Of a stretch of DNA of 64,000 bases, positions 3,636-62,800 are shown piece by piece (the stretch's first letter is position 1; every line of letters begins with the position of its first letter). Made by a program: the position numbers and the translations under genes. The notes below the pieces were generated by a model that worked only from the letters and a program-made list of their open reading frames with translations, did no database searches and had not been told where the DNA came from. The stretch is taken from assembly GCA_023078555.1 (NCBI GenBank), contig CM041203.1:4486538-4550537 (forward strand), written 5' to 3'. Source of the stretch: Ulva prolifera (lineage: Eukaryota > Chlorophyta > Ulvophyceae > Ulvales > Ulvaceae).

Positions 3636-4602
3636 GCGTGGATGTGGAGTCGACAGAGGGCTGTGAGACGATGGCAGCCCTGCCCGTCGACTCCATCGAC
3701 GTCGCCGTCTGCAACGCCGGCGTCGTCATGCGCCACGACTCGGAGTTCAGCAGTCTCAGCTTGGCGGACTGAGCGTGGCAGTTCAACACCAACGCGCTCG
3801 GGCCGCTGCGGGCGGTGCAGGCGCTGCTGCCGAAGCTCAAGCGCGGCTCGAAGGTGATGATGAGGGGCTCATCATCATCCGCTCAAGGCTCGGCAGCTTC
3901 CGGGAGGCTGCGGCCGGCTCGAAGCGGATGCTCCTTGGGCGCCGCCCGCAACATTTGCCTGTTCACAAGCCTGATGGCAGAGCCAGGTCAGCCGTGAAGA
4001 GGCGAGCACAGGCTGCGGCCCGCCCACATGCATGCAGCGCTGCACGGCGCCGTGGTCACGTGATCGAACGAGCACTTCAAAGCCGTTTTGAGTGAGTGTG
4101 GCGCAGCCGCGCGCACAGCAGTCGGTGTTGCAGCGATCGTACTTCTGTACAGGACTTGCCTTTCTGTACGGCCGCAGCGCTGGGGCTGCGGTGACGGGGC
4201 AATTGGCCTGAAGGTGTGAGCCACATGCGGCGTTGTGCCAGTCCAGTGGTAGAGCGGTCTTATCACTGGACTTTCACAAAAGTTGAGTCCTCTGAAGTGC
4301 AGGCAGGTCAATATACCTATTGGGTATGTCACAGGCGTGCCAGTGCAGGTGGGTACCGCGTGAGCAAGTGCGCGGCGCACATCGCGGCGCGCTGCCTGGC
4401 GGAGGACCTCAGGCCCCGCGGCATCGCCGTGGCTGTGGTGCACCCGGGCGCCGTGCAGACGGACATGGTCAAGGTCTCGGGGTTCCAGGCTGAGGTGAGC
4501 CCCCAGGATAGCGTGGCCGGCATCGCCCGCGTCGTGGCGGGCTTCGGCAGTGCGGATACGGACTCGTTCTACAACTACCTCGGGGAAGAGATGGCCTGGT
4601 AG
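3636..4602 (+). pseudogene. Degenerate C-factor-like SDR (copy B)
   Basis: Two exons match exons 2 and 3 of the intact gene at 5822-8185. Exon 2 starts at 3636 after CTACAG with GVDVES and contains CNAGV and the NTNALGPLRAVQALLPKL block. It is broken by an in-frame TGA at 3770-3772, in the place of the DDATWQ motif. It is broken again by a frame change around 3855-3870, just before the segment equal to SKMGSF, where a few extra bases sit. Exon 3 (about 4349-4602) keeps YRVSK and the DSFYNYLGEEMAW ending, but one base is missing at its 5' edge relative to the other two copies, so it no longer joins in phase at the same acceptor. No first exon was found upstream. Three independent lesions make a pseudogene the likeliest reading. 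The 3' exon alone is still open, so an alternative short transcript is possible. Confidence 0.8.
4240..4272 (+). repeat. Short palindrome with a tRNA A-box-like core
   Basis: AGTCCAGTG at 4240-4248 pairs with CACTGGACT at 4264-4272. The centre reads GGTAGAGCGGTC, which resembles the D-arm/A-box of a tRNA (AGTGGTAGAGCGG). About 16 bases downstream AGTTGAGTCC resembles a weak B-box. No full cloverleaf can be folded. A related copy lies on the other strand at about 51081-51133. It sits inside the intron of SDR copy B. Confidence 0.5.
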
Positions 4603-42704: not shown

Positions 42705-44581
42705 ATAGAGCCGTAAATCTGTGCTGCCTCTTCTTCTGCTCTGCTGAGAGCGACCATGATTGCACGCGGTGCAACGACGAATTTCAGGGCGCCGCCACCA
42801 GTCCCGGTGTGCCCGTATGACAGCACTGATCAGCTGGCCCAGTGCGAAGCGAAGCAGCAGCCGCGTCTAGACCATGCATGCAAGGTGAGCATGCATGCGA
42901 CCGGAGCTCCTGCAGTTCCAGAAGGGGCAGCACTGAGAGATGCAGTCACCTTTGAGTTGAGAGTCTTACGGCATGCGTCTGGTGGGAGGTGAGTTGCCTT
43001 AACGGAATGTAGGGTTGCTCTGGGGCTGATGAGGCCTGGGTTACACGATGTGTGCAGGTGGCAGACAGCAGGTGGCAGATACCGCCCCTCTAAGGCTGGT
43101 GTGCCCGGCTGTGCGGCCACGGCGAGTTCTCTATCGTGCTGCGTCCCGATGCCGCTGCAGAGGTAAACTGCGTGGGGCCTGCTCGGCACATATGACTTGG
43201 CACTTCTGATCAAGAGACTGTGAGAAATGGTTGATCATGGTCATGAATAATGGGTGTATGCATGTATGTAGTTAAAAAGGAGAGAGGTCGGGCATCGAGC
43301 CTTTTCTCGGTGTATGCATGTATGGTTGTGTAGCTGTATGCATTGAGACATGATGTTGTGTTCAAAAGCGTATGTATGCATTATCACATAGTGTGCTGGG
43401 TGCTGGATGTGTGGTTGTTAGATATGATATTGCCATAAGGAGGCATGCGTGGGTCCATGCATGTGTGCCAAGGTATATGGCAGGACTCGTAGCAGCAAGG
43501 GGTTTATGCACGTGGCTCTCTGTGCACATGTGCAGTGCGTTGTGATGCCGTCAATTCAGGCATCAGTACCAGCGGGAAACAATGATGCGTGTGAGCTCAC
43601 AGCTCGCCTGAGAGTGCATCTTTCTAGCTAGACTGTTAGCCCTTGAATATGCTCGCTAGTGGAGTGGGCAAGCCTTATGAACATGCAAGCTACTGAACTG
43701 AGCGGGCCTCGTAGCCATTCTGTAGGGCAAAGGTGGTTTGTCCACAGCTTGAGCGTCATGTGTCGCCAGCGTGGTAGATGTGCCCAAGTATGATCTTGTG
43801 AACGCACCAGCTCAGGTATCCTGTGAATGCGACTGAGGACTCTGTAACAATTGTGTTGCTGAAATAAGTGTCTAACCATCTTGGCAACTGTGAAACAATC
43901 AGAGACGTCTCTGGTGTGTTTGGCTCGCTGCATGATGCCTCATGGCAATATAATATTAATTGGCAAATATTTTTTATTTGCCAATTTTGGCAATTTGGCA
44001 ATATAATATTGATTGGCAAATATTTTTTATTTGCCAATTTTATAGAATTGGCAAATACCAATGTCATACCAGCTGTGTACCAGGCGGGAGTCACACCATA
44101 GTGCTGCATGCTGATGAAGATGAGATCCCCACACAATAGTGACGGTCTCCGTGCAGCATAGCTCAATTGCAGCGGCGGCATTTGATGACCCTGTGACAAT
44201 GCCACACAGCCAACATGTATGCCATAGCCAATATATGATATCTTTCTTTTACAGCACTGAGGATTGGGATCAGTTCATGCAAAACACCGGTCACACTGTC
44301 CACTACAGGTACTGATCGTGCACAACACAGTGCCATGCATCCCGATTACAGTTCAAGGAGTTGATTTAAACTGCGTCAGTGCGCAAAGAAAAGAAGGCCT
44401 CCTGGTGCCTGTCTACTGAACTGATGCGCCTGCTGCCATGCCGTAGTATGATCATGCAGGCTGTTCAGCACAACGCCGGTCCATCAGGACATGTGCATGC
44501 GTACTGCATAAATGTTCCACCCAGCAACTCTGTTTCTACATTTCCATGTTTCTATAAACCTTCCCTTGACATTGTCCTGGC
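42705..44581. other. Spacer upstream of nothing and downstream of the fibrocystin-L-like gene
   Basis: No supported gene. It contains the AT-rich tandem repeat at 43944-44042 and TGCATGTATG words near 43258-43325. The fibrocystin-L-like gene ends at its right edge. Confidence 0.5.
43944..44042. repeat. 53-bp AT-rich tandem duplication containing an inverted repeat
   Basis: Two near-identical units start at 43944 and 43997, each beginning GGCAATATAATATT. Within each unit ATTGGCAAATA and ATTTGCCAAT form a hairpin around TTTTTT. The second copy is incomplete at its right end. It differs strongly in base composition from flanking sequence. Confidence 0.9.
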
Positions 44582-44809
44582 CTAGACGGTATTCTGGTCA
44601 TGGACATCATTCATAGCCTCATTCAAGTACCGGACTTGCCTACGACGAGACCGTACAACCATGATCGCCACCGCTACAATTGCGCTGAGCAATAGGGCGC
44701 CGGCAAGTCCTAGACCAAGCGCCAAGCCCTGCACCATACTATCTCTTCGGAGCAGTGGACTGGGACGAATTGGCCTGGCCTCTGGGCAATTGTCGGAATA
44801 CAATTTATG
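44582..44809 (-). other. Last exon: transmembrane helix and cytoplasmic tail
   Basis: The exon codes MVQGLALGLGLAGALLLSAI then VAVAIMVV, a single hydrophobic helix, followed by the stop-transfer cluster RSRRRQVRYL and a tail of fewer than 20 further residues ending TV. This is type I topology, with the long N-terminal part outside the cell. The stop is TAG at 44582-44584. The acceptor TATCAG at 44810-44812 is the only one that keeps phase. Confidence 0.8.
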
Positions 44810-47800
44810 CTGATAGAATTGTTTGCATGCAGGCACCAGGCTCCGTCCAGCGCAGCTACCGTGGAAATCCAGTGGTATAGTTGGCATATTACTGTATTGC
44901 CGCAGCATTCCATGAGCACACATTTTTCAGCAGAACTGCGTGCATCATTGCCGGTGTTGGGGGCAAACATGTAACAAAGGCATCAAAGGCGGTAAGCACG
45001 TACATTGCCCTTGTCTGCATCTATTTCGCCACAGATTTCAACACCGCCAGGCCGCCAAGGCACAACAGTTGCAGTCGATGCTCCAGTGCTGTCGCCTGTG
45101 TCATTTGTCAGGGCGGCTCCCGCAGGCACAGTCACGGTCAGTGTCCAGGTGTCACAGCTGTCCCGCGATTCCAGTGGCCAGCCATCCAGATCTTGCCCAA
45201 TTGTCAGCCGATACCAGTCATTGGGCATTGCTTGCACGGTGACATTCATGGGCAAAACAGTGCCGTTGTCATGTTCTGATGTCGTGATCACATCGTCTGC
45301 GGTGAATCCAGTCACAGCCACGCGTGACCTGTCTACGGTGTCCCCATCAGGAGCATACAACACAAACACGGCCTCCAGTGTGACCGTGGGACCAGCCTGC
45401 GCTGCCAATGGTCCACTTGGGGCGACCAGTGTGGGCATGTCTGAGACCACAGGTGTCACGTCTACTGGTGTCCTGTCCACCATTCCTGAGGCGACCTGTG
45501 GTGGGTCGATGGGCAAAAATGCAGCGAGTACGGGGCTGTCACTGATGTCTTGCTCCAGATTTGTTGAGAGATCACTGACGGCATCTACTATTGCTGCCGC
45601 TTCGACTGATGCTGGCAATAAAATTGTGATGTCAGCTATTACAGAACCACTTCTGGTGGACACGTCGCAGAAGAGGGGGGTTGGGTCACCAGACTTGCCG
45701 CTGTCCAGCACTGTCCTGATGCGAGCCTTTGGAACATCGCACAGTGCAGCTTCAAACTCATCTGTGGTTTGGTTCAGGAACATGTCCGGGAATCTCACTT
45801 CAACTGTGATCGCAGGTCTGGAAACTGTTCCTGGAGGTGATGTTGGCGGAGGTGAAGTCCCGTTTGGCATGAGGGGTGACGGTGACGGACTGACTTCCGG
45901 ATCTTCTCCTGGAGTCGTGTCTGGGCCTGGGATCGTTGGAGATACGTCTTCGTAGCACCCGGACGGCTTTGTTGCCTCTGCCTCGGCGATGGCATCATAG
46001 TAGACAAAGGCAGCGTCACATGTGCACTGTCCATCAATACATGAAGGCTGGACGCCGTTGTCAGCTGTCTGCACACATCTGATGCATCAAGATGATTCCT
46101 GGAGCTGAATCAAATCAAGATTCTCATCTGTGTTGCCTGTCAGGCGCGTATGTACAATAGCACAGCAAGCTACACTCTGTGTGCCATGACTCGCAGTGCG
46201 GAAGCTCACAGCCTACATCCCTATGTACACTCTCATGCAGTAAGTTGATACAGTGTGCCACATTGCGTCTGCACATACATCACAGAGTAGGTCACACCTT
46301 GCAGGTGGGAGTGCACTGCGGGGGTACTGCCTCTTGCACTTCCGTTACAAGGCTTGACGTGGAAACGGGAACACCAGCGATAATGATCTCATCTACTGAT
46401 GCTGTGGCCCTTTTGATTGTGTCTGCCAGGGCAAGTAGGCTGACAGGGTCAAATGCTTCGCCCCCATTGCTTGGCCGGGCCACTGGCGACGTGTCCACGG
46501 GCTGAGATGTTCCTGGGGCATCAGTGGGGGGTGCAACGTAACCAGGCGGGTAAGGAGGAGAGGGCATCGGTGGAGGAGGCGGTGGCGAGTCTTCTTGCAA
46601 GTACTCTAATGGAATGATCGAGTACGTCAACTCCAGTACACTAACCTCATCTGCCAGGCGACGACGCGCACCAAGGCTCTTGTAGCCTGTGATGCGAATG
46701 GTGGAGGGATCCAGACCCAACGCAAAAGCAAGACCCGAAGTGAAGGTGGCTGGTGGAGTGTCCAGGAAGGTCTGAAGATCCATCTGAATTGCCATGGAGA
46801 TGCGGACCATTGGAAGCTGTTTGGCCATGATTGGATGTGGCCCCTTGACGACGACGGTGAGCTCGAAGGTATCCATCGCCCAATGATTGGCACCTGCAGG
46901 ATCAGCAAGTGTGACCGGTCGCGCTGATGGTAGCTGCATTGCCTCACCCTTGACCTGAATCTTGAATGTCTGTGCCACGCTGTACCTGCACACCCCACGG
47001 CCAAAATATAAGGTGATGGCATGATCCTGCCCAATATCTGCGGTGAGCTAACATGTGCATCTACTAGATCAGCAGTGTACAACACAGCAGCACAAGCCAG
47101 TCTTATACAATTTATGAAAAGCAAGCAATGGTGTGTGAGCACTACGTAAACCAGATAGCTATCGAGCAAAATAAACAAGGTCTTGTGCATTCAAGAGTCT
47201 TCACATTCTGCATACTTTATGCTGAGGTGCCAGCTCATTGCTCTTTCCAAGGGCACAGTCCATTGCAGGACAAGCGACACACGTCACCTGCCGGACACAC
47301 ACCGAGGCTGTGCGTGAGGCAGGTGGTGAAACGGGACAGCATAAGGATGCAGACAGATTATGAAATATTTGGTGTAGTGCGTACTTGAACCGAAGCAGCA
47401 CGCCCTCCTCAGCTGCAATCCCGCTCATGCTGATCTGATGCTGTTGCGGCGGCGTCCCGGCGTACATGATCGTGTATTCACCACTGAGCTCCACAGTCGT
47501 TGCGAATCGGCTGAGTCGCAGCAGCGACGTGTAGTCAAAGTCCCAGAGATGATCCTCAAAGCAATTGAGCCGCGCAATGCTAGAGCGGCCCCCAGCGGCA
47601 CCCAAGCCGCTCACAGAAACAGGCTGCACACGGCGGGACATGCGATCGGGGTCCAGCGACTCAAAGTAGAGCTCGCGGTAGTTTCCACCGGGAATGACCC
47701 ATGCGCCCATGCCTTTATCATGGTACCTCCGAGAGTCTCCCATCGTCAGATTGCTGTTGTTGCCGGTGACTGAGGCCGGTTCACCAACAAGGGAGCCATC

Positions 47801-50800
47801 TGTGTCGACAAGCACTGCATGGGTCAGCCCGGTGCATTCAAAGTCACCGCAGTTGTCAAATGTTGCCCGGCCTGGATCAGCGGGGGGCGGGTAGTACTTG
47901 GCGTTGGATGAAACATTACTCATACTCATGCGCCGAACAAAAGCAGTTGGTGTCAAGTCGTCAGAGGTTGGATTGGGTGTTATACTAAAATGGCGGCAGC
48001 CACAAGCGTCTACATCAGGCCAGTTCACAAGAGCAATGTCAGACATGTCAGTGTAGCCTCCAAGGGCTGCGTCGCCATCAACGCTGGACCACGGGCCCAT
48101 AAGAGGTGGTTTCCTTGGCCAGGGCTTGGCCCCATTGAACCACACTGAAGTGGTAATTCCAATGCGAGGGCCACATTCAGCATCACCGTCTTCACTGTAG
48201 TTGGGTAAGCCGTCTCTCTCTGTGCAGGTGTCTGGGCATGTGATGCTGCTGTCAAAGCCACATCCTGCACTTCTAGTTTATTTCAGCGATCGCATTGTGT
48301 CTGATACTCAAAGCAGCGATCAATGAGTCGGCAATGTGCAGCCACATCACCCACAAATCGGCAACAGCATGGGCCCACTGTGATCGTTAGTAGTTTTGGT
48401 GAACTGCAAGGCATCTATCAGCACACTCGAATGTGCATTGGGAGATTTCACTTGTGCTGACGATCATAGCAGCACAAGTGAAATCTCCCAATGCACATTC
48501 GAGTGTGCTGATAGATGCCTTGCAGTTCACCAAAACTCTGATCAGCAATAGAAGTGACACAAGACGAAACATCTGTCTGATTGTTGAACTCGTAAACTGT
48601 ACTGGATAAACTCTACTGCCGGGACCACGAAAAGAGAGCATTCAATATTGATCAGTTTTCTGAGCAAGCTTAGCAATACATAGGTTGCTCAGGCAGCATG
48701 CACACTCTGCGACATACCTCCGTTGTTGCTGTAGCCAATTGCAGCCATGTGTGACATCTTCACAGAGCCACTGTCGATTGAACGCGAGGCTTTTGGCATG
48801 ATTGCCAATCCGATCCGGTTGTCAGACAGGAGGAGGTGCTCGACCTCCATGCTGAGGCCACCGCGGTCATATACAACACCCACCTCTGTGGTGTGGTGTG
48901 CGATTGCATTGGACACTCGGCTGCAATCGTACGATGCTTCTGACAGATACACAAATCCAACACGGCAAGAATGTGCGGTGTTGGCGCCCATTGCACTGTC
49001 ATCAATGCCACACTTTTTGGCCCTGCATGTGTATTGCAGGCATGGAGGACGGTACATACAAACATAGCGTTATCTCTGTTGCAGCAGCATGGCTTCTCCA
49101 TTTCTAATGTGGTCCGAACATGTGGGGCTGAAGAACTCAATCTGTACGGTGCAGTTCTGGTCAAGTATTGCTCAGAAGCGTACATCCCAAAGATAAATCC
49201 ATAGTTCTCTGATCCCGCGGCAATATTGTCTTCAGAATGGATTGTGCAGCTTGAGGAATATGGGCATAGCACGAATCCAGAGACTGTATCCAAACGTGCG
49301 GTTACTCCTAGCTTTCGTGCAAAACCAGCAGTGTTGCGAAGGATGACCGCTTTGGGATGATCTGGGATCTTCTTGCCATTGCTTGCTGTTTCGTCATTCC
49401 ATACTGAGATGGCAGGTCCTTCAGTGTCGACAACAACACTATCTGTGATCTGCACAAGCTCGGCCATACGGACCTCAATGCCTGGACCAAACCCATGTGA
49501 GAAGGTGCTGTTCTGAATAGTGGTCCCGTTCGAGGTGGATTCGATCGTCAATGCAGCTCGCCCAGTTCCAACTTGGCCCATGCCCCGGAAAGCTACATTT
49601 GCGATGTTCAATTTTCCACGATATCTGCACGCATCAGAAAACTCATTTTTGGGTCCTGTATACAGCAACCAGAATAAGCCCTGGTGTCAATTCCTTTAGA
49701 AAGCAAGCGCTACAGTTGTCATGCCTTGGTGAGCCATCTGAGAACAAGCAGCGGGATATTGCCGAGTGATGCGCACATCGTTGTCAATGTCAGCCCACGC
49801 TCCTGCCGCTGTACCTCAAGTTCACTGACGAACATCTTGGCTCCATGGCCATCACGCTCCCCGCCGCCCTCAATGGTGATTGACCGCGTCAGCAGCAACA
49901 CCTGAGCTCGTGTCTCCATGCCTTCAAACTTCGTCTTGGCGCTGATGGCCGCATCACGGAACATGTCTGCAGCACCGAAATGCCCAAAGCGCAGCGGTTC
50001 CGCCAGTGTCACGGTGGTGCCATTGCAGGCGACAATAATGGCGTACTCTGCCTCCTCCCAGGAGTGGCCAGTGCTGGTGAGGAAAATCTCTTCCCCTGGC
50101 TGCCACTGGGCGGCATCAGTGACGGTGATGGCGGTGTCCCCTGGAGCCGCAGGGACGGCAAGATGGGTGGTCTGGGGGAGGCTGCTGGCACCATACAGAT
50201 TAATGTCGCCCAGCACCTCCAGCACATTGCTGCCACCCACATACAGCCGCCTTGCATTGGCTGGGACTTTTGCTTCTTTACCTGTGTTGGGACTCGAGAC
50301 ACGTATTGTAACCTGCAGAAAATGCGCCACCTTTTGACAGTGAAATGACAAAGAGACTGTGGCAAACACCTTGCAATTTACAGTAGTCACCACTGCAGCC
50401 TTGACAGTGAACAGCATTGAAAGTAATTCTATGGTGAACGTCTGAAAGCAGACCTTCGAATGTAGTGGAAAAGACCAACATGAGAGTCAGCTATCTGGGG
50501 TTTTCATTCAGAAAGGTCAGAGATGTCCAAGAGGACGATAGTACAGGCCCGAATTTATTGCATATCATCAGTACGGCTAAAAGCACTGCACACCTTGCCA
50601 TCATGGGGATGTGTCTCATTGCCAGCAACCATGGCGCCCGTAGACATCTTGATTGTCTCAGTCGTGAGTGTAATATCTGCGCCTTCAGCAAACGTGAGAA
50701 GACCATCGAGCTCAAGATGCTCGAGGGCAGCCGAATCTGTATCCAGCTCGACAACCCATTCTGGTGGGATCGAAACAGAAGCTCCAGCAGCTGGCTGCCC

Positions 50801-53800
50801 AGTGGCTGGATCGAGCATAGGCCGCATTTCTTCCGGTAAGCTCTGCCAAATCTTTGGATCACTCCAACTCCTACAAGCACTCAACATAACAATACAATGG
50901 TGCAACAGCGCAATCATGCAAGAAGCCTGATCAGCCTGATCAGCGATCTTGAGCTTGTTGTCCTCTGACACACGCAATTACACACTCATGCAATGTGTAC
51001 ATGCGTGTCCACCACTCCCCCATGCCTTTCTGGGGCAAGACTGCAATGTAAATATACATTGTACTACACAGTCAGCAAAGCATGCTGTGGCAATCTAGTG
51101 ATATGACCGCTATACCACTGGATTGCCACATGCTGGGACAATAAAGGCTAACAGATGTTGTGCAGTATGCTGATTGCTGGTATGGTCGGGCTGTCACGTG
51201 AGCTGATGCTAGATCATATGTAGATATACACACCTGACTGTGCTGTCACGCTCCACAGACACCTCAACAGGGGCTGGGCAGCCCTGAGGTGGGCATGACT
51301 GAGCTCGCACTGTCACCTGCTGATTCCACCACCAGCCAGTGCCTGGATTTTCGCGGCCTGACAGCAACATGCTCAGTGTATTGTTGTCGAAGCTTCTGTA
51401 TGAATCACCTGTACTGTTGAACTGAACATCGGGCAAGGAAAGATCATTCGGAATGCGGGTGTCGCCGGCTCCAGAGATGTCAATGTAGCCCCACACATCC
51501 AGGTACGGCATAGTGACAAATACAGCCTCTGGAAGCGGGGCATTGGCCCGGGAGGTGTTCAGCATGTCTGTGACCCCGAACCGGTATCGTTCTGGGATGA
51601 CATTTGGACTGTTCCACCAGAGATGGTAGTGCTCATCAGAAGCCACCACAACTGCCCAACCGTTTGGATTGTCTTTCTTCTTCCTGTCCCTGCAGTTGAG
51701 ATAGCAACCACCGTGTCAGAACCTTGACCACCAGAATACATGTGGCGCTGGATACATGTTAACATCACAGCATCAAATGCTTAGTGTATGTATGATGCTG
51801 CACATCTAAGGCACAGCCAAGGCGGAGCACATTCGCCTGTGGCCAACACCTAAACGATGGAGGTTTGTACACAGGCACACACTCTTTCCAGAGAGAAACA
51901 AGCTCGCACCCCCAAGGGATCATGGAACGTGACATGCCAGTGCCGGCCATATCCTGTGGCAGCAGCGTCGCGTTCTCTAGTTTTTCAGCATACTGCACCA
52001 CCATTTCTCGCTGCTGGTAGACCCAATACGGACTTGGAAGATCAACCATGAGCCGGATGAGACGTTTGGTCGTTGGGCAAACAGCAGATGTGCTCCACCC
52101 CAAGCGCTTCCCAACAGGGCATGAGGGCAGCAGGTGAGGCCAGCCGTTGTGACTGATATATGTGCCTGCAGGAGAAACTAGCATGAGATGCTCGCATGGA
52201 CACAGTTCATACCCAGCACAAGCTGACCCGAGTGGGGTTTTCATGGCAAGTGTGACGTAACTGGTCCAGATACGACAGCTCATACGCTTATTGTGAAAGA
52301 CAGAACCGTCATCTGAACGAAGCGCTGGAACAGCACATCTGATTCGTACCTGCATCATAACCTGAAAGACTGCCATCCATGTCATGAAGGATAGCGTTGA
52401 GACCAGCACCATAGAAAATGATGCTGTCTGTGTCTACGAAGGAGATGTTGGCAAAATGTGTCGTCTTGGCACCTTGGTTCTTCGAGTTGGGGAAGTTGCA
52501 GTGGTCACAGGTGGAGACAGCATACGCCTCGGGCCCAGTGAAGCCAACAAACGTAGTGTCCGTGACAACCTGTTCATTGGTGAATCCACTCACAATCCTG
52601 CACATCACAAGAGGATGCCTGCAAATCTAACGCCCGAGATTATGCTATTATTCGCCCTGTAAACACAGTGGCACCCACTTTGCCGTGGTGTTGGTGCCGC
52701 ATATCGTGGCTCGACATGTACACAAATACGTTTTCAAACCTTTGTTGTAACGTTATTGAACCGAGCCGCAACTGGACGTAAATATACGATTCCTGAGGCA
52801 AGCAATAGCAGTCCACTCGCACACAGCCATGTGGCCACCATGGTGAGGCTTGGTTTCAACCGACAACCTCCTGGTTGCGACTATGCACCGGTACATCTAG
52901 TGGAAGCCAATATGAATTTGAAGATCATCAAAGACGCAGATGTATTGATTGGGAACTGCGGATCGCACCAGCCATATGTGCGAGGTGAGTCGGGGTCGTC
53001 GCGCACACTGTGGGGAAATGGCTTCTTCGCCATAGCAGGGGAGTTGATGCCGATGATTGTGTCATAAGTCCCGGTGGTTCCGTAAGGGGCGTCCATGCGA
53101 TTCAGCTCTGCGCCAGCGCGCATGTTGTCTACTAGTGCACAGCCCACGCACCTCACATCGCCCGCACGTGACAACATCAATCCTGCAATGACATAGGTGC
53201 CCTGTGTTCAATGAAGCTGCGACGCCACAGCAATAGTGTGGTAAATCATCATTGTCGTCTTCCTTGTTACGTGACCGGATGCCCAGGGCACATGTTTGTT
53301 TCAGGACCGAACAAGGATTGTCAACATGAACGGCTGCTATGCGTCAATGTAAGGCGGTATGCAGTGTGGATCAGGCAAACATTGCTGCACGACGGTTTGA
53401 GACGCAAGCGCCAAAATCACACCAGTGCGGCCGTTCTTGTAGCCTGTGTACCGGAGAAGGGTTGCTGTGCGCGGATGCTGCTGTGCCCCAGACTGACTCC
53501 ACTGGCATGGGCTCAGACCAGAGTCTAGAGGTACCCACTGATTGAAAACGCGGAAGCCATAGCGAACATTGCTATGAGCAGTGTTGTCTGTAAATGCTCC
53601 CAGTGGCTCTCCAGGCGGGCAGATGCTCGTAGTATGCGAGGGGCCGGTTGGGTGAGCCTGCGCAATAAAAAATGCTTCAGCTTGGAAGTTCAACAATGTC
53701 CTAATGGGTGACAGCAATCACGATCGTAGCCCAGATCGTAGCCACAGTAAATCAGAACATGATGTGGGTGCCACATGGGTGTCTGCACGCAGCTTTGGCG

Positions 53801-56800
53801 CACCTGCAGGTCAAACCAGAAGCCATATCGCTCAGAGCCCGCGGCAGAGTTGTTGTAGAAGTAGTTTGTGGGGAAGGTGACCCAGAACGACGCGGGGGTG
53901 GTGTCAGTGTCAAGCAGTGACATTGACTTACGTGTCCAGAGCGCGAGGTTGTGTACGATTCTGTTCTGGGACTCGATGGCGTCCTCGATAAAGAACGTGT
54001 GGCCCATGTTGTCGTACGCCACGACGTCCTCAATGCGCAGGTAGTGCACGCCGTGTATGGTGACGGCGCGATTGAACGTGCGGTGCACAGCCGCACCGCG
54101 GATGTAGCTGTCGTGGACCTCGCCCATCATGTGGAAGTGCAGAGGATAGCGGCCGAGCATGAACGCCTGGCCGCAGCGGAAGCATTCGATCTGGGAGATG
54201 CGGCCGATGGTTGTGGCGAGGCGGCCTCGCGGTGGGGAGGCCAGCATGATGTGGGCGCCGTACTGGTCGACGTCTGACTCCTCGTCTCCCTGGATGACGA
54301 CGTTGCGGGACAGGCAGCCAACCTCAGCACGCATGTCAACAGTGCGATTGGCCATGTCCTGCAAAATTACTGCTGCTTACTTGGGGTCTGTGCATGCTGT
54401 GAACTGTGAATGGAGAGCTGCATAACTGGCATGTAAGCAAAATGAATCCACTAGGCAGCATGGCGGTAGGTTGCAGCCAAAAGCACACCACCAGATCTCC
54501 CCAATGCTCATGGGACAGAGGTTTGTCCAGTGTCAAGATTAGGCCATTTTTTGAGACCGACACAATGCGCCTTTGCTCTACTTCTGACGGATCCCATGCA
54601 CTTGACGCAATTGCGATCTCATCGCCAATCTGCCAGTTCACGGGCTCTGCCAGCTGCACTGTGGATGTACCAGCTTCGGCAGTGATACCAAGCCGTGTCC
54701 ATGTTGGTGTCTTGGGCCTGCCATGGAGGTCCAGCGTGCCATATCGTACTGCGATATTTTTGGCACCATAGCTTGGAATCTCACGTGCAGTGGAACGACG
54801 GCCATGTAGGGTGATCTTTGCACTGTGCATGAACGGTGCAGTCTCACGACCAACTGTGAATGCGCTGCCCGCGCCCCGTACCATGATCCACTCGGCATGG
54901 AGCTCTAGGTCATGATCGTCCAGAAATTCTAGCTTGCCTTCCACAAGCAGGAGGCGAAGCCGAGGAGACTGAGGGCCCGCAAGATCATATAGTATAGTTT
55001 GTCCTGCCGGGATGATGACACTTTCGCCATCCACTGGTGCCGGTTCCCCTGAAACAATATTTCTTCAGCAATCCTTGAATTCTGACCCACGATCACAACA
55101 TGCATCAGTGAGTGCCATTATTCTGTAACATGTCCATGTTATTCTGTAACATGCCCACCGATGTTGATGGACACTTGTAGCACGTGTGGTGGCATTGGGC
55201 ATGGTGCTTTTTCATGTAGCAATATTTTGGAAGGACAGGAGCATTGATGTTGGCAGAAGGGCGTACCTGCCCATGTAATGCGGCTGCTCCACAAGTCTTT
55301 ATAGGCAAAGGTGTTGCTTCCGAGCTCTGCCATCCCATACGACAGAGATGAGACTGAGAAGGATGTAGTGTCTGGAATGCTTAGACGTGCGCCTGTCACA
55401 CACGTCAATGCCGTTGAGGACGTGGTGTTGACAGTACACGGCACTCCATCGATTTTCACCAACGCATCCTTTGTAGACTCTGGAAGGTTCTTGCCCAAGA
55501 TCATCACCGATGTTCCACCAGCTGCCGTGCCGTAAGATGGAGACACGGACGACACCTCCGGGGTGACTGTGGAGTCGTATGAGTACATAGATGTTCTATT
55601 GATGGATGCAATTCCAGATTGCGAGAAGACGGTGATAGAGATGGCACAGTCATCTGGCTCCATCGTTGGCCTCGTGACACCAATGAACTGCAGCTCGGGA
55701 ACAATGCAGCTATTTCCCCTGTTAGTAATCTGTACACGCACATACCGATGCTTTTCTGTAGAGTCTATGTTCAGTTCTGTCCAGCCGGTAGCATAAGGAG
55801 CAGCTGACTCTCCATGCACCACCCGATCCCAGTTGAGGGCATCGTTGGAAACATCAACGACCAAGCCAGAAATTTGAGACTCTGGTTCCCACATCGAGCC
55901 ACGAGCGGCCACGTCGGCTGGGATGAGGATGCGAACAAGGCTGATCTGGGCCACATGCGGGGACCAGTCCACGGTGAATTCGCATGTTTCTCCATTACTG
56001 CTCCTGCACAGATGGTTGCCTGTGTATTCTCAGAGAGATTGTCAGAGATCGCCTGTGCATTGTCAGACTGATCGTTAGCACCATTCAGTCAAAGAGGTGC
56101 CGAAGCTCAGATTCCCCATGCCCGGGCAGGGGCCCCTGCTCTGCTGTTTGCGAAAGGATTTGTAAGCGTTGTGACAGGCACGCATAGGTAGAACAGACGA
56201 TCAATATGCACACAATGCACCATCTGCTCCGCCATCTGCTGACTGGCCATACCTCCACTCAGACTCAACTTGTCCATCAAACATTCTGCTGGCTGGGTTG
56301 TCTTTTTGCTCTCCAGCTGTCCCACTGCCAAGTACCTGATCAGGCCTTACTGGAAGATTGACATGGTCAGAAACTGGTGCAGAATCCTTCCAGTACCGAT
56401 GTGTTGTGCATTCGATCATGTTTGACGATGCGCCCGCAGCGATGTCACATGGTTGGTCACACAGTGATACCTCTGTCTCTCCCGGAATCTCACTGAAGCC
56501 AGTACCTGAGATGACGAGGCTTTGCCCTCCGGCAAGTGAACCTGGAGTTGCAGAAGAGATTGTGGAAAATGATTATGATAACACTCAGCCCTGATGTGGC
56601 TTAAAGCACCCAGGTCAGCTGTCTACCAGGCAGACCTCTGTGTGCATCATGCCTGTAAGCAACGTGAATGCAGCAATAGTATGACCACGCGGTTGCATGT
56701 ATCATCCTACCGTAATGCAGGACTCTTGGGAAACCTCACAGCATGTGTTTAGGCAAGCATGACATTGACAGCAGAGCGCACCCACGCTGGAGCTCATGGT

Positions 56801-59800
56801 TGAGATTGCAAGGGGGACATGTATGACAGGCTGTTTTCCAGCAGCAGCCATGCCATCAATGAGGATGACAATTTCATGGCCTGAAGGTGCACTTGCAGGG
56901 AGCTGCAATATCGTGTCTTGTGTTAGCGTCACAGTCGCGGCTGATGTGTCAACGACCGCCGGTAGGATGTCTCTGCCTAACATCACTTGTACGTTGCGTG
57001 AGCCCAATGAAGTAGTAGCATTGGCAGTTTCATTGCGGATGAATATTGTCACTGCTGCCCCGGAGGCCTCTTGGTCGAAATTGTCGATGTAAAGTTCTTG
57101 CTGAATGAACTGACTCCATTCCGCAGCTGCAGCATAAAGTTTGCACTTCTGTTGATCAAATTCACACTCCGGCATCTCGCCTTCAACCCCCATTACAGAC
57201 ACAGCGAGAGGTGGTCCATCAGCATAAAGCCAGCCTGGTGTGTAGGCCGTGATCATGGTATGGCTGGCCTCAAGGACAACCCAGCGCCCACCCTTGCCCT
57301 CAAGCCGTACACGCTGCAGATCTGATGGGAAGCCCGCGCCAGTGATTGTGATCATGCCGCCACTGTTTGTCAAGGAAGCTGGCTGGACCTGCTCAATGTG
57401 AGGCTGCACATTCACCAGAGGCAAGGCTGCAGAACCGTTGGTGTGCAGCATGAATTCTGCTGCACCAGTATCTTCTGACCACACCAGTGGAAGGTAGGTG
57501 CCTGGTTCAATGTCAGCTGGCACGCGCGCAACAACATCTGTTGAGGATTGAACATGAACCTGGAGCATCAGGTGGTCTACTCCATCTGGTGACCACAGGT
57601 CAGGCAACTTCACAGCCTCTGGGGGATCTGAGTCGACACGGTATGGGTTAGTCCAGCGCTGAACTCCACTCTCTTCCACACGGGCCAGATAGATATTAAT
57701 ATCGTTGCCGTTGAGCTTGGACCCTTGCATGTGCAACAAGCCGCTAGCGTTCACATTATGACTGACTGATGTTACCCTTGGCGTTGCATGTGATGTGTAG
57801 TAGAATGCGCAATTGTCTGCTCCAAATCCTTGGTCATTACCAATGAAGGGAATAGGTTCCAAGCTGGCAGGGTCGGGCACAGTAAACGGACAGCACCGTT
57901 GAGTAGTAACAGAAGCTTGTCCTCCGTATGCTCCACCGTAATTGCCTGGCCTGCCGTAAGATCCCAGGCTGACAGGAGCTTCTGCTATACCATACGCTCC
58001 CTGTCCACCATAGGTTGCACCATAACTTCCACCTGACCCTGGTCCGCCATAGCTGCCACCAGATCCACCATAAGCGCTACCAGGACCAAGCTGCGACAGT
58101 GAAGGATCACATCCTGGAGTGCATACAGGAGGCGCTTGGCATTGCGCATATATGCCACTTACGCTCACCTCGACAGGATTCAGCAGCCCCTCTGTTGCTC
58201 CCGCGTGCATGCGCCCCGCAGGCTCAGTCTGGCAGGTGATCATTGTGCGTGAAGAAGATAACACGCGGCATGGTGCGGCAGGGAATACACCAATTGACAC
58301 AAAGTTTGTGGTGATGGCAGCGCCATGATCAGCAAACCCATCTCCATGTATTTCCAAAATCGAGCCTCCAGCAGCAGAGCCATACAACTGACTGATGGAC
58401 GAAACGTAGAACACGCCAGTCACATTCGCTCTTCCTGAGGCATACTGGCCATTTGCGAGGACAGTGACAGGTAGTCTGCCAAAAGTTCCACCACCACGCG
58501 CACGACATTTAATGGTGGTGTCACTGGCACTGCGTACATAACATTCTTTGTCTCCAATCCAGACACGTACATTTTCAGCCACATTGCCAAATCCAGAGCC
58601 ATTCACCGTGACAATCTGCAGAACACGGTTGGCCTAGTGAGCAACGCAAAACAGCAGAAAAAGAGAGAGAGAGAGAGAGCATGTACATATAGAGATATCA
58701 TAGCTCACCTCAGGCACAACTGCACTGATAACCTCTGGAATCACATTGCTGACACGTGGCCCTTCATCTTCATTATAGACGACGTCTGCTTGAGCAACAA
58801 ACATGGCGTTTGCATAAAGCTCGGCCACCACTGGAGAGACTTCAGATGCAGGAGCAATGCCAATGTCCAGCAATCGGCGCATGGCCGTGTCAGTGGAATT
58901 GGAAGCAGCGTTTGCAGAAGCATTGCCATGATCACTTTGGTTGTTAGCATGCGTGTTCCATGGCTCATCAGAAGGACTCCCGTTCTCAAATCTGTTGACT
59001 TCATAGTGTAAAAGTGTGTCAAAGATCTCACGTGGTGGAGCTGGCACTGAGAACCTCGCTGGTGTCAAGGACCATGACAGCGTAGGTGCGCTGAAATAAA
59101 TGCAAGCATCCGGCAAATCTGAGATCCCATATTCTTCTGCAATGCGACTTGCATGCACCTGTGGCGGATCCTGTGCAGACCCAGGCTGAAGAGCATTGCC
59201 CTCTGAAACATGCATATCATTGTTCTCCGGGGAGTAGTCACTGTCATCGTCAATGATGTGGAGAGGACGCGGGGTCAGGCCAAAAAACTCAGGGACGGGT
59301 GCATCCTCCTCCAGCTCCACTCGTGTACAAACCAAAACTGACATAGACTCTTCATCACCATCGGCATCTGGTAGCAAATACACCTCCACTGCTGTTTGAC
59401 TATATTCTGGAACCGTGGTGAACCGCACATACAGCTTGCTTGGCTCGCTGCCAAGCTGCTGGGATGGGCTATTGAATACAACTGGCCATCCACCACCGTC
59501 ACCTCCCTTGGACCTTGTCGTAATATTTTGTTGTAAAGGTGTATAGATAGTATAGATAGTATCCAGCATTACTGACTGCGCTGCTGCAAAGCCTTTCGAT
59601 GGCACATGCACCTGCAAGCATCGCTCTCCTCTTGCTGAAGGTTCGGATTGTGAATCGGGCGGAACACCAGACAGAACAGTCCAGTATGCGGCACACGCAG
59701 ATGCCACCTCTGCAGCGCCACATCGCACATCCATGCTGTACCCAGTCACAGACTGCATAATCTGGTTTGTTGTCGGTAGATGCAGCCATGCATCACCTGA

Positions 59801-62800
59801 ATCCAGCCGACAGTCCAGTATCACTTGACTGTTGTTTCACAGGGCTCACCTTGACAGCACTGTAGCCAGGTAGTGGAGGCGATTGGAGCTCACAACGAAG
59901 CTCTGTGTCATTCCATGTCCCATTGCCTCCGAACATGCATTCAACGCTTCCTATCTCAACAGGAGGGAGAAACCCATCGAGAACTACTTCATTCCCAAAT
60001 CCAGAGCCAGCAATCATGACTGCCTTTCCAGTAACTTCCACATGTGTCAGAATGGGTGTATCATCGATAGAACGACGAACATGACAACCGTCCTCAGCAA
60101 GGCACATAGCTCGTACTCCATGAGAATGCAGCACAACTTGCGGCTGTTGCTCAGGAACAGAAAAGACAGATGCCTCGATTGGGTGGTACCATGCATCTGT
60201 AATTGCTTCTGTCCTCTCTGTGCGAACCTACAGCAAGAGGCCACATAATCAAATGAATCACATTCAGGATACTCGTTGCTGTGTAGGATACTGCTCCAGC
60301 TGCAAGTGCGCTACAATGAAATTTCACGCAGTATACAGGCTCCTTCGACCGATCACTCACACTTCTGTAGCAAATCGCAAATCACAAAAGCCACGGAACA
60401 GAAGCATTAAACACTACAGAAATTCTGTACCTGCTGGTACAAGAGCATGAACTATTCACACAAGATCACGACTGCTACATGGAACATAGAAGAGATGGTG
60501 GCACTGTGGATTCAGTCACCATGATGTGAGTCGTGGTACAGCAACATGCTTTCAGATCAGTGCCACCCCAGCAGCAAGACATACCGTGAATCCAGCACCT
60601 TGACTGAGAACAGTGACATTCAGGCCATTATCAACCAGAATCCGTTGCAGTCCAGCAGCTGATCCTGACGATGTTGCGTTAACATGATATGGGTGTGTGA
60701 CGGGCCCCATTGCTGCAGGCCATGTGAACACAACCTCCACTCCGTCAAATACATTTCCAGCTACATGTGCCCTCAGAGCTCCATTATCCTGCCGAGAATC
60801 CTGGTCGCGTGGAATAGGCACCCCTATGCCCTGCAGCACAATCAGCAGTTCACAAGCGCCGTTTGCATGGGTGCTACAACTTCATTCAAAAGACTCATTC
60901 ACAAGTTCTACAACCCTTACATTATCCTCATGGTGTCTGTAAGCCCCAGCAAAAATGACCCTGTTGGCTTGATGCACAAGGAGGGAACATGCGCATGGGA
61001 TGGTCATCAGCACAAAAAGCTGGCAGCAATAAGCTACTTGAAATCGCTCTGTTTACATTCAAAACTGTGCGCACACGGCCCTGGATGACTGGATGTGCAT
61101 GCAACATCGTGATAGGCCAGGAGGAACACGCCTGGAGCAAAGACAACAGCTCAGTCTCCACATTGGTCCTGTCACTGTCAATCAGATGAGCTGGGATCTG
61201 GGTTTGGCTTGCCCAACCTGTATATCTAGGCTGGGGTCAGGAATCAAATCGGCACGAGCCAAGAGGGATGAACCATCACACACGTGCGCAGGCGGAATGC
61301 CTTGGCACCCTACCATGCAGCGCTGCCGTCTACATAACACATGCAGCACTCTGATGGAATTTTCAAGGGAGCTGTGCTTACCGTTCCAGTCCAGGACCAC
61401 CTGCGCTCCCCAGTCATATGGACCTTCTTTTCGGATGACATCTGCAACATCGCCTGATCCGGCTGTGCAAGTAGTCGAGCAGGTCGCATTGAACCCGCGT
61501 AAGGTCAATTTGTAACCGAGGCCATCCACGGATGGTCGTCTGAATGTGAATGTCAGCACAACATCGCCATTCTCGGTCACTGCAAGCTGGGGCCATTGAC
61601 ATTAACAGGTAGGAACAGGTCGGAACAGGTGTTGCAGGATTGACGCCTTCATGAGCTTTGTGGACGACGAATTGGGCTCGTACCATTCTTATGTGTACTG
61701 ACCGAGACACCAGCATCTTTCATGACATCATCGATGCGCTGCTGCATCATGGTGCCTTGATGATTCGCTTCAAAGTCGATGCGATTGGTCCTTGATTCCT
61801 GCAATCCACATACGCTTCATATGAATTGTGAATGCGATCTACGCAAACAGGAGACAGGTGCGCATGGTGCACCTGAACACCAGTCGCAAACTGAGATTCA
61901 TGTCATACCAATTGACAAGAATCTCAGTTTGCGACTCTTGCTATCTGAAACTAGAATGTGGTTCTGTCCAACAGCAATAGAATTCAGCACAGTGGCACAG
62001 ACAAGGGCTAGGCAATAAGGCCCCGTGCGACATACCACGCGGTATCCTTCGTTGTTGATGTAGTCAATCTGTAGATAAAATGAGCCATTCATGACTTGTC
62101 CCAGATCTAGCTGCTGCTGTTGGCCCATGAAATTACTTCGAAGGAACAATGTCTGCTCCTCTCCTTTCTCAGATGACCAGGACGGTGGAGCATCTCGATG
62201 CACGAGTGCAACGTCAAGGTAACCCGGGCCCCCGTAGTTGGCATGGTCCAGGGTTAGAGAATACTGCTCGCCCTTAATCAGCCTTATGTTACGAGACTTC
62301 TGACCGTTGTAGGTTGACCATGAACGCCTGCACAGTGCAGCTGATGCTCAATCATGGTTGCTGCTCATAGGCATCGATAATACAAAGCCATCACCAGCTA
62401 GAACGTTGATCACATACACACCTCGTGTACGGCGAATTTAGTAGTAATTCCTCACTTGAAATTGCCTGTCCAGAAGAGCCCAGCTTGATCATACGCATTT
62501 GAACATAGTCATCGCAGTTTGCAACAAAATACCCCATGCCAGTGAAAGGTGCAGTGAAGACTGTGTCCATGTGAACACGGTACTTGTCATAAGTCAGAGG
62601 CAGGTTCATGGTTGGAGCTGTTACTACACTCTTGACAGCTGAATCACCGTAGCCTGCACATCACAGATAACAAAGGTACTCCCTAGTGTGTTTGCTAAGG
62701 GTGACTCACTTGCTGATGCACGTCTGACACACATTGCCAGTGCGGTGAGCGTAGCATGCACATGTGTAAACAGTTCCTCTCAGGGCCACAGCCCACACAT

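Follow-up and report, generated by a model that had tools for sequence, protein, structure and literature searches.

A hairpin of two perfectly complementary 68-bp arms lies within an intron in the 64,000-nt stretch of DNA analyzed here (the window), and we found no second locus for it in the genome. The explanation that we regard as best, and as probable, is a single-locus inverted duplication of 68 bp that arose in a recent replication template switch and is probably neutral. The hairpin most likely adds one more example to a mutation type that is already known.

Structure and rarity of the hairpin

The left arm occupies positions 48392-48459 and the right arm, its exact reverse complement, positions 48470-48537 (both on the plus strand), leaving a spacer of 10 nt at 48460-48469 as the loop. 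Self-comparison and a re-check by script agree with the first-pass annotation, which had described two exact 68-base arms around a 10-base loop: 68 out of 68 pairs (100%) are complementary. RNA folding of the plus strand between 48372 and 48557 gives −140.3 kcal/mol compared with a mean of −50.0 kcal/mol for shuffled sequences (z = −21.1), and none of 200 shuffles is as stable. The transcript (minus) strand of the hairpin folds at −145.0 kcal/mol. A weak, imperfect extension outside the 68-bp arms appears in the fold. Longer arms were rejected as a candidate, the flank-to-flank alignment being no better than that of other pairs taken from the intron (1627 out of 3117 as good), and so was a triplication, as no third copy of the arm is present within 47400-49500.

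A chance origin of this pairing is ruled out, since 68 bp is far outside both the simulated and the sampled distributions of hairpin length. In 30 first-order Markov sequences of 64 kb, the longest perfect arm (loop ≤300) ranged from 11 to 16 bases. Sampling of 23 real stretches of the genome, which total 277,463 bases with the window included (0.3% of the genome), yielded one perfect hairpin of 22 bp, one of 23 bp, and then the hairpin of 68 bp, with no other above 23 bp. Eighteen of these stretches are at fixed positions on contigs C1-C10, and sampling was also done around loci of interest; L001-L006, loci that overlap with the window or with L007 (the paralogue locus described below), and the exon-centered L028-L034 and L036-L042 were left out of these counts. 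According to a survey of 118,019 genomes, the longest perfect arm detected in Homo sapiens is 140 bp, and introns have a higher density of inverted repeats than exons do across eukaryotic kingdoms (PMC13155455); a perfect intronic hairpin of 68 bp therefore falls within the known range.

The window has a second, shorter hairpin at 61882-61936, with arms of 24 nt that are 96% complementary and a loop of 7. It is of pre-miRNA-like size, has folding energies of −37.5 and −39.6 kcal/mol for its two strands, and occurs at a single locus in the genome. At 43943-44057 there is an AT-rich tandem repeat with a 53-bp unit, present in ∼2.1 copies, that contains many inverted TTGGCAAAT-like motifs.

The host intron and its paralogue

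The hairpin sits in a predicted spliceosomal intron of a minus-strand gene. This intron (48265-48717, minus strand) is 453 nt long, is in phase 1, and reads GTATGT...GTGCAG, its terminal GT being at 48717 and its AG at 48265. Upstream of it, the coding sequence at 48718-49069 (minus strand), identified from its open frame and its alignment to a paralogue, ends in ...YSNNGG at the junction. The open frame at 47201-48264 (minus strand), directly downstream, resumes with ...CGFDSSITC and is 72% identical to the same paralogue. Read on into the intron, the frame of the upstream exon meets stops, and the exons joined over the intron form a continuous open frame with 72.5% identity to the paralogue over 400 amino acids across the junction. 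The first-pass annotation had placed the hairpin in an intron, and this placement is borne out by the splice sites, the in-frame junction, and an intron of the paralogue that interrupts the same codon. We rejected the idea that the hairpin contains a coding or copied exon: An 84-aa frame running through it (48387-48641, minus strand) matches no Pfam family at E 0.001, and its protein database search gave one candidate with shared words, which failed the E 1 threshold.

The host gene had been called fibrocystin-L-like. An open frame at 50555-50977 (minus strand), which we take as part of the gene, has a G8 domain (PF10162, E = 1.9 × 10⁻¹⁰), and nearby minus-strand frames have a sub-threshold beta-helix match. 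These predicted domains are compatible with the name but do not prove it. The gene is probably algal. There are 38 LHC exon matches in the genome, and the strongest of these exons matches chlorophyll a-b binding proteins in the PDB, where its top hit is a two-stretch match to a chain named LHCI-2. The LHC exons and these PDB matches indicate a photosynthetic organism with a green-type antenna, and point to light harvesting of the chlorophyll a/b type; a secondary green plastid is a possible source of such an antenna.

The paralogue of the host gene is located on the same contig, on the opposite strand and ∼35 kb away (C8:4570237-4571136, locus L007), with 72% protein identity. Its intron at the same codon is 291 nt long and has no comparable hairpin, and locus L007 has no perfect arm of at least 16 bases (L001-L006 were likewise left out of the perfect-arm counts that covered L007). 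From this, the hairpin does not look like an old feature that both introns inherited. Beyond their common position, the introns cannot be aligned (best match E = 0.37), and with this much divergence the paralogue does not reveal what the sequence was before the event. The paralogue exons give the impression of a higher G+C content than the copy in the window. Within the window itself, G+C per 2-kb step falls from ∼0.55-0.68 in 1-38000 to ∼0.49-0.56 in 40001-64000.

Copy number and mode of origin

A genome search with the arm had been suggested by the first-pass annotation as a way of telling a single locus from a foldback element, and it came out in favor of a single locus. The 68-nt arm, searched at E 0.001 in the 88,887,114-base genome, matches only its two positions in the hairpin, and the whole intron with its borders, searched genome-wide at E 1, matches only itself, the caveat being that a similarity search of this kind may overlook very common words. 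As a positive control, a search with 100 unrelated bases of the window gave 370 first-look candidates genome-wide, of which 40 places were scored and listed (77 matches; 88%-100% identity, query included), and these are copies of a dispersed foldback repeat of ∼46 nt. Since the arm has one locus while a like search detects this many-copy repeat, a family of foldback transposons is rejected, and with it the foldback option of the first-pass annotation. The genome's own 46-nt foldback family has no match to the 68-bp hairpin. Members of that family are found in the window at 51086-51130, 44861-44908, and 4234-4278 and outside of it at L007 5377-5422, L015 1375-1419, and L025 5869-5918. The repeat matches itself on both strands and folds as a hairpin (−29.7 and −27.6 kcal/mol), and a stretch of its minus strand gives the impression of a tRNA D-arm.

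A young foldback or MITE-type transposon that exists in one copy would look similar in that it, too, is a hairpin-forming inverted repeat, and the motif TGATC is present both 6 nt to the left of the arms (48381-48385) and 1 nt to their right (48539-48543). However, no second copy of this hairpin turned up in 88.9 Mb, and when the flanks are read, no direct repeat abuts the arms as a target-site duplication would, the TGATC copies being displaced. The motif is also weak. GATC is found in the loop and close to the outer end of each arm, but it is frequent in the intron (six copies in 453 nt), and we therefore give its presence near the hairpin no weight. A single-copy transposon is thus a very improbable source.

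Perfect arms at a single locus are also what would be expected of an assembly or library artefact, in which a fold-back chimera had entered the consensus. Against this, the inverted copy ends abruptly at 68 bp and the intron runs on to a proper in-frame splice site, and the contig spans 6.1 Mb. Fold-backs at the level of reads usually reach much further and are not common to many reads. A copy that stops so sharply within an otherwise intact intron speaks against a fold-back chimera, and we consider an artefact unlikely, at perhaps one chance in ten.

In the template switch that we favor, the growing strand would switch during replication to the nascent or opposite strand as its template, copy the neighboring 68 bases as their reverse complement, and then return to its original template, so that the whole event would be one mutation. 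The hairpin has the form that such an event would leave, namely, an adjacent reverse-complement copy with 68 of 68 bases paired and a spacer of 10. In comparisons within its own genome, no other source of the arm was found, and the arm and the remainder of the intron have the same G+C content (45.6%), which fits copying from nearby. Mutation patterns are reported to fit template switches that make perfect stems in one step, miRNA stems included (PMC8794818), and the hairpins ascribed to such switches resemble ours in their adjacent perfect reverse-complement copy, short spacer, and single locus (PMC8794818; PMC7954356). The four switch points of such an event are read from an ancestral sequence with one arm; here, the event is proposed from the present-day sequence. 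A follow-up paper reportedly deals with the de novo origin of miRNAs by template switching.

There is a tentative trace of what may have prompted the switch. The 13 nt of the left flank at 48378-48390 (plus strand) match the loop region 48457-48469 in inverted orientation at 11 of 13 positions. The pair may represent a weak inverted repeat that was there before the hairpin and set off the switch. Matches as good were seen in 33 of 20,000 shuffles of the flank, in 28 of the 31,590 16-mers of 44001-60000 (both orientations, hairpin excluded), and in none of 524 16-mers from the rest of the intron. As this match is the best of six comparisons, it is a weak hint only.

Two further systems offer partial parallels. 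Small inverted triplications likewise consist of a short inverted copy with a short spacer and are ascribed to replication errors, but are described as having three units of ∼150 bp, whereas here there are two units of 68 bp (PMC13334657). The palindromes of nematomorph mitochondria, for which template switching is named as one possible mechanism, are also long perfect inverted repeats, reaching 284 bp; they are reported to be numerous and to lie in mitochondrial coding sequence, in contrast to a single one in a nuclear intron (PMC6649704).

The absence of any difference among 68 pairs limits the divergence of the arms to ≤4.3% (95% upper bound), which is young on an evolutionary scale, although the bound is loose. 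The first-pass annotation had held that the hairpin must be either very recent or kept. A recent origin is supported by the absence of mismatches and by the paralogue intron without a hairpin, but it is not proved. Template switching is reported to restore perfect pairing in existing near-palindromes as well (PMC7954356), so perfection does not separate a young hairpin from one that was repeatedly perfected. Instead of being young, the arms could owe their perfect pairing to selection or to recurrent template switches.

Potential as a small-RNA precursor

The hairpin is probably neutral for the most part, as it would be removed along with its intron by splicing. Before that, the pre-mRNA would contain it as a double-stranded stem of 68 bp, which may be a substrate for a Dicer-like enzyme. 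The genome search identified Piwi-domain exons at two loci (six matches, five of them above the cut-off and one with an internal TGA), one exon match to RNase III (48.4 bits), and one to Dicer_dimer, 8.8 kb upstream of the RNase III exon on the same strand. A second RNase III domain was not found in this search. The RNase III and Dicer_dimer exons are likely to belong to one Dicer-like gene, and both Dicer and Argonaute are thus represented at the level of domain matches. With Piwi and Dicer-like domains in the genome, Dicer could plausibly cut the RNA stem formed by the intron.

These domains raise the alternative of a working small-RNA locus, in which the intronic stem is diced to RNAs of ∼21 nt for Argonaute and the pairing is kept for this use; such a locus may be compatible with an origin by template switching. 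Studies of Chlamydomonas lend it some support by analogy. Many Chlamydomonas miRNAs are reported to be intron-derived, and in the single intron construct that was put to the test, processing did not depend on splicing (PMC4817775). Many of the condition-prevalent miRNAs seem to be imprecisely processed from fairly long hairpins; they have been likened to newly evolved plant miRNAs, and young miRNAs are described as mostly thought to be neutral (PMC5511227). Like the intronic miRNA precursors of Chlamydomonas reinhardtii, the hairpin is an intronic stem-loop in a protein gene, in a genome with Dicer-like and Argonaute domains; it differs from those precursors in that the stem is flawless over 68 bp and is known from DNA sequence alone (PMC4817775). 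By this analogy, the stem could be diced in this organism.

On the other side, by our own reasoning a flawless 68-bp stem is expected to yield siRNA-like, imprecise products. Two 22-nt tiles, which cover 44 of the 68 arm positions, find no near-perfect second site: With up to three mismatches allowed, one tile has a single extra site (at three mismatches) and the other has none, where our arithmetic gives ∼0.4 expected sites per tile, and the reversed-pattern control is zero for both. The hairpin is also missing from the paralogue. We therefore regard a working small-RNA locus as an unlikely alternative, albeit the least unlikely of those considered. Two other candidates were rejected: a viral origin or viral target, as two 20-mers of the arm have no exact match in the viral contigs, and a known RNA family, as the window has no match to any of 4227 Rfam families at gathering scores.

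An intermediate possibility, to which we give a small chance, is a small-RNA gene at birth, that is, a fresh hairpin left by a template switch that is already diced and bound by Argonaute before it has acquired its first mismatch. If the hairpin is neutral, it simply illustrates, in clean form, a mutation type that is already known. If it is real and polymorphic among strains, it would be a natural substrate for asking whether a perfect hairpin that results from a replication error undergoes dicing immediately, which is one proposed first step in the origin of new miRNAs, and could show whether such a hairpin alters splicing or the expression of its host gene.
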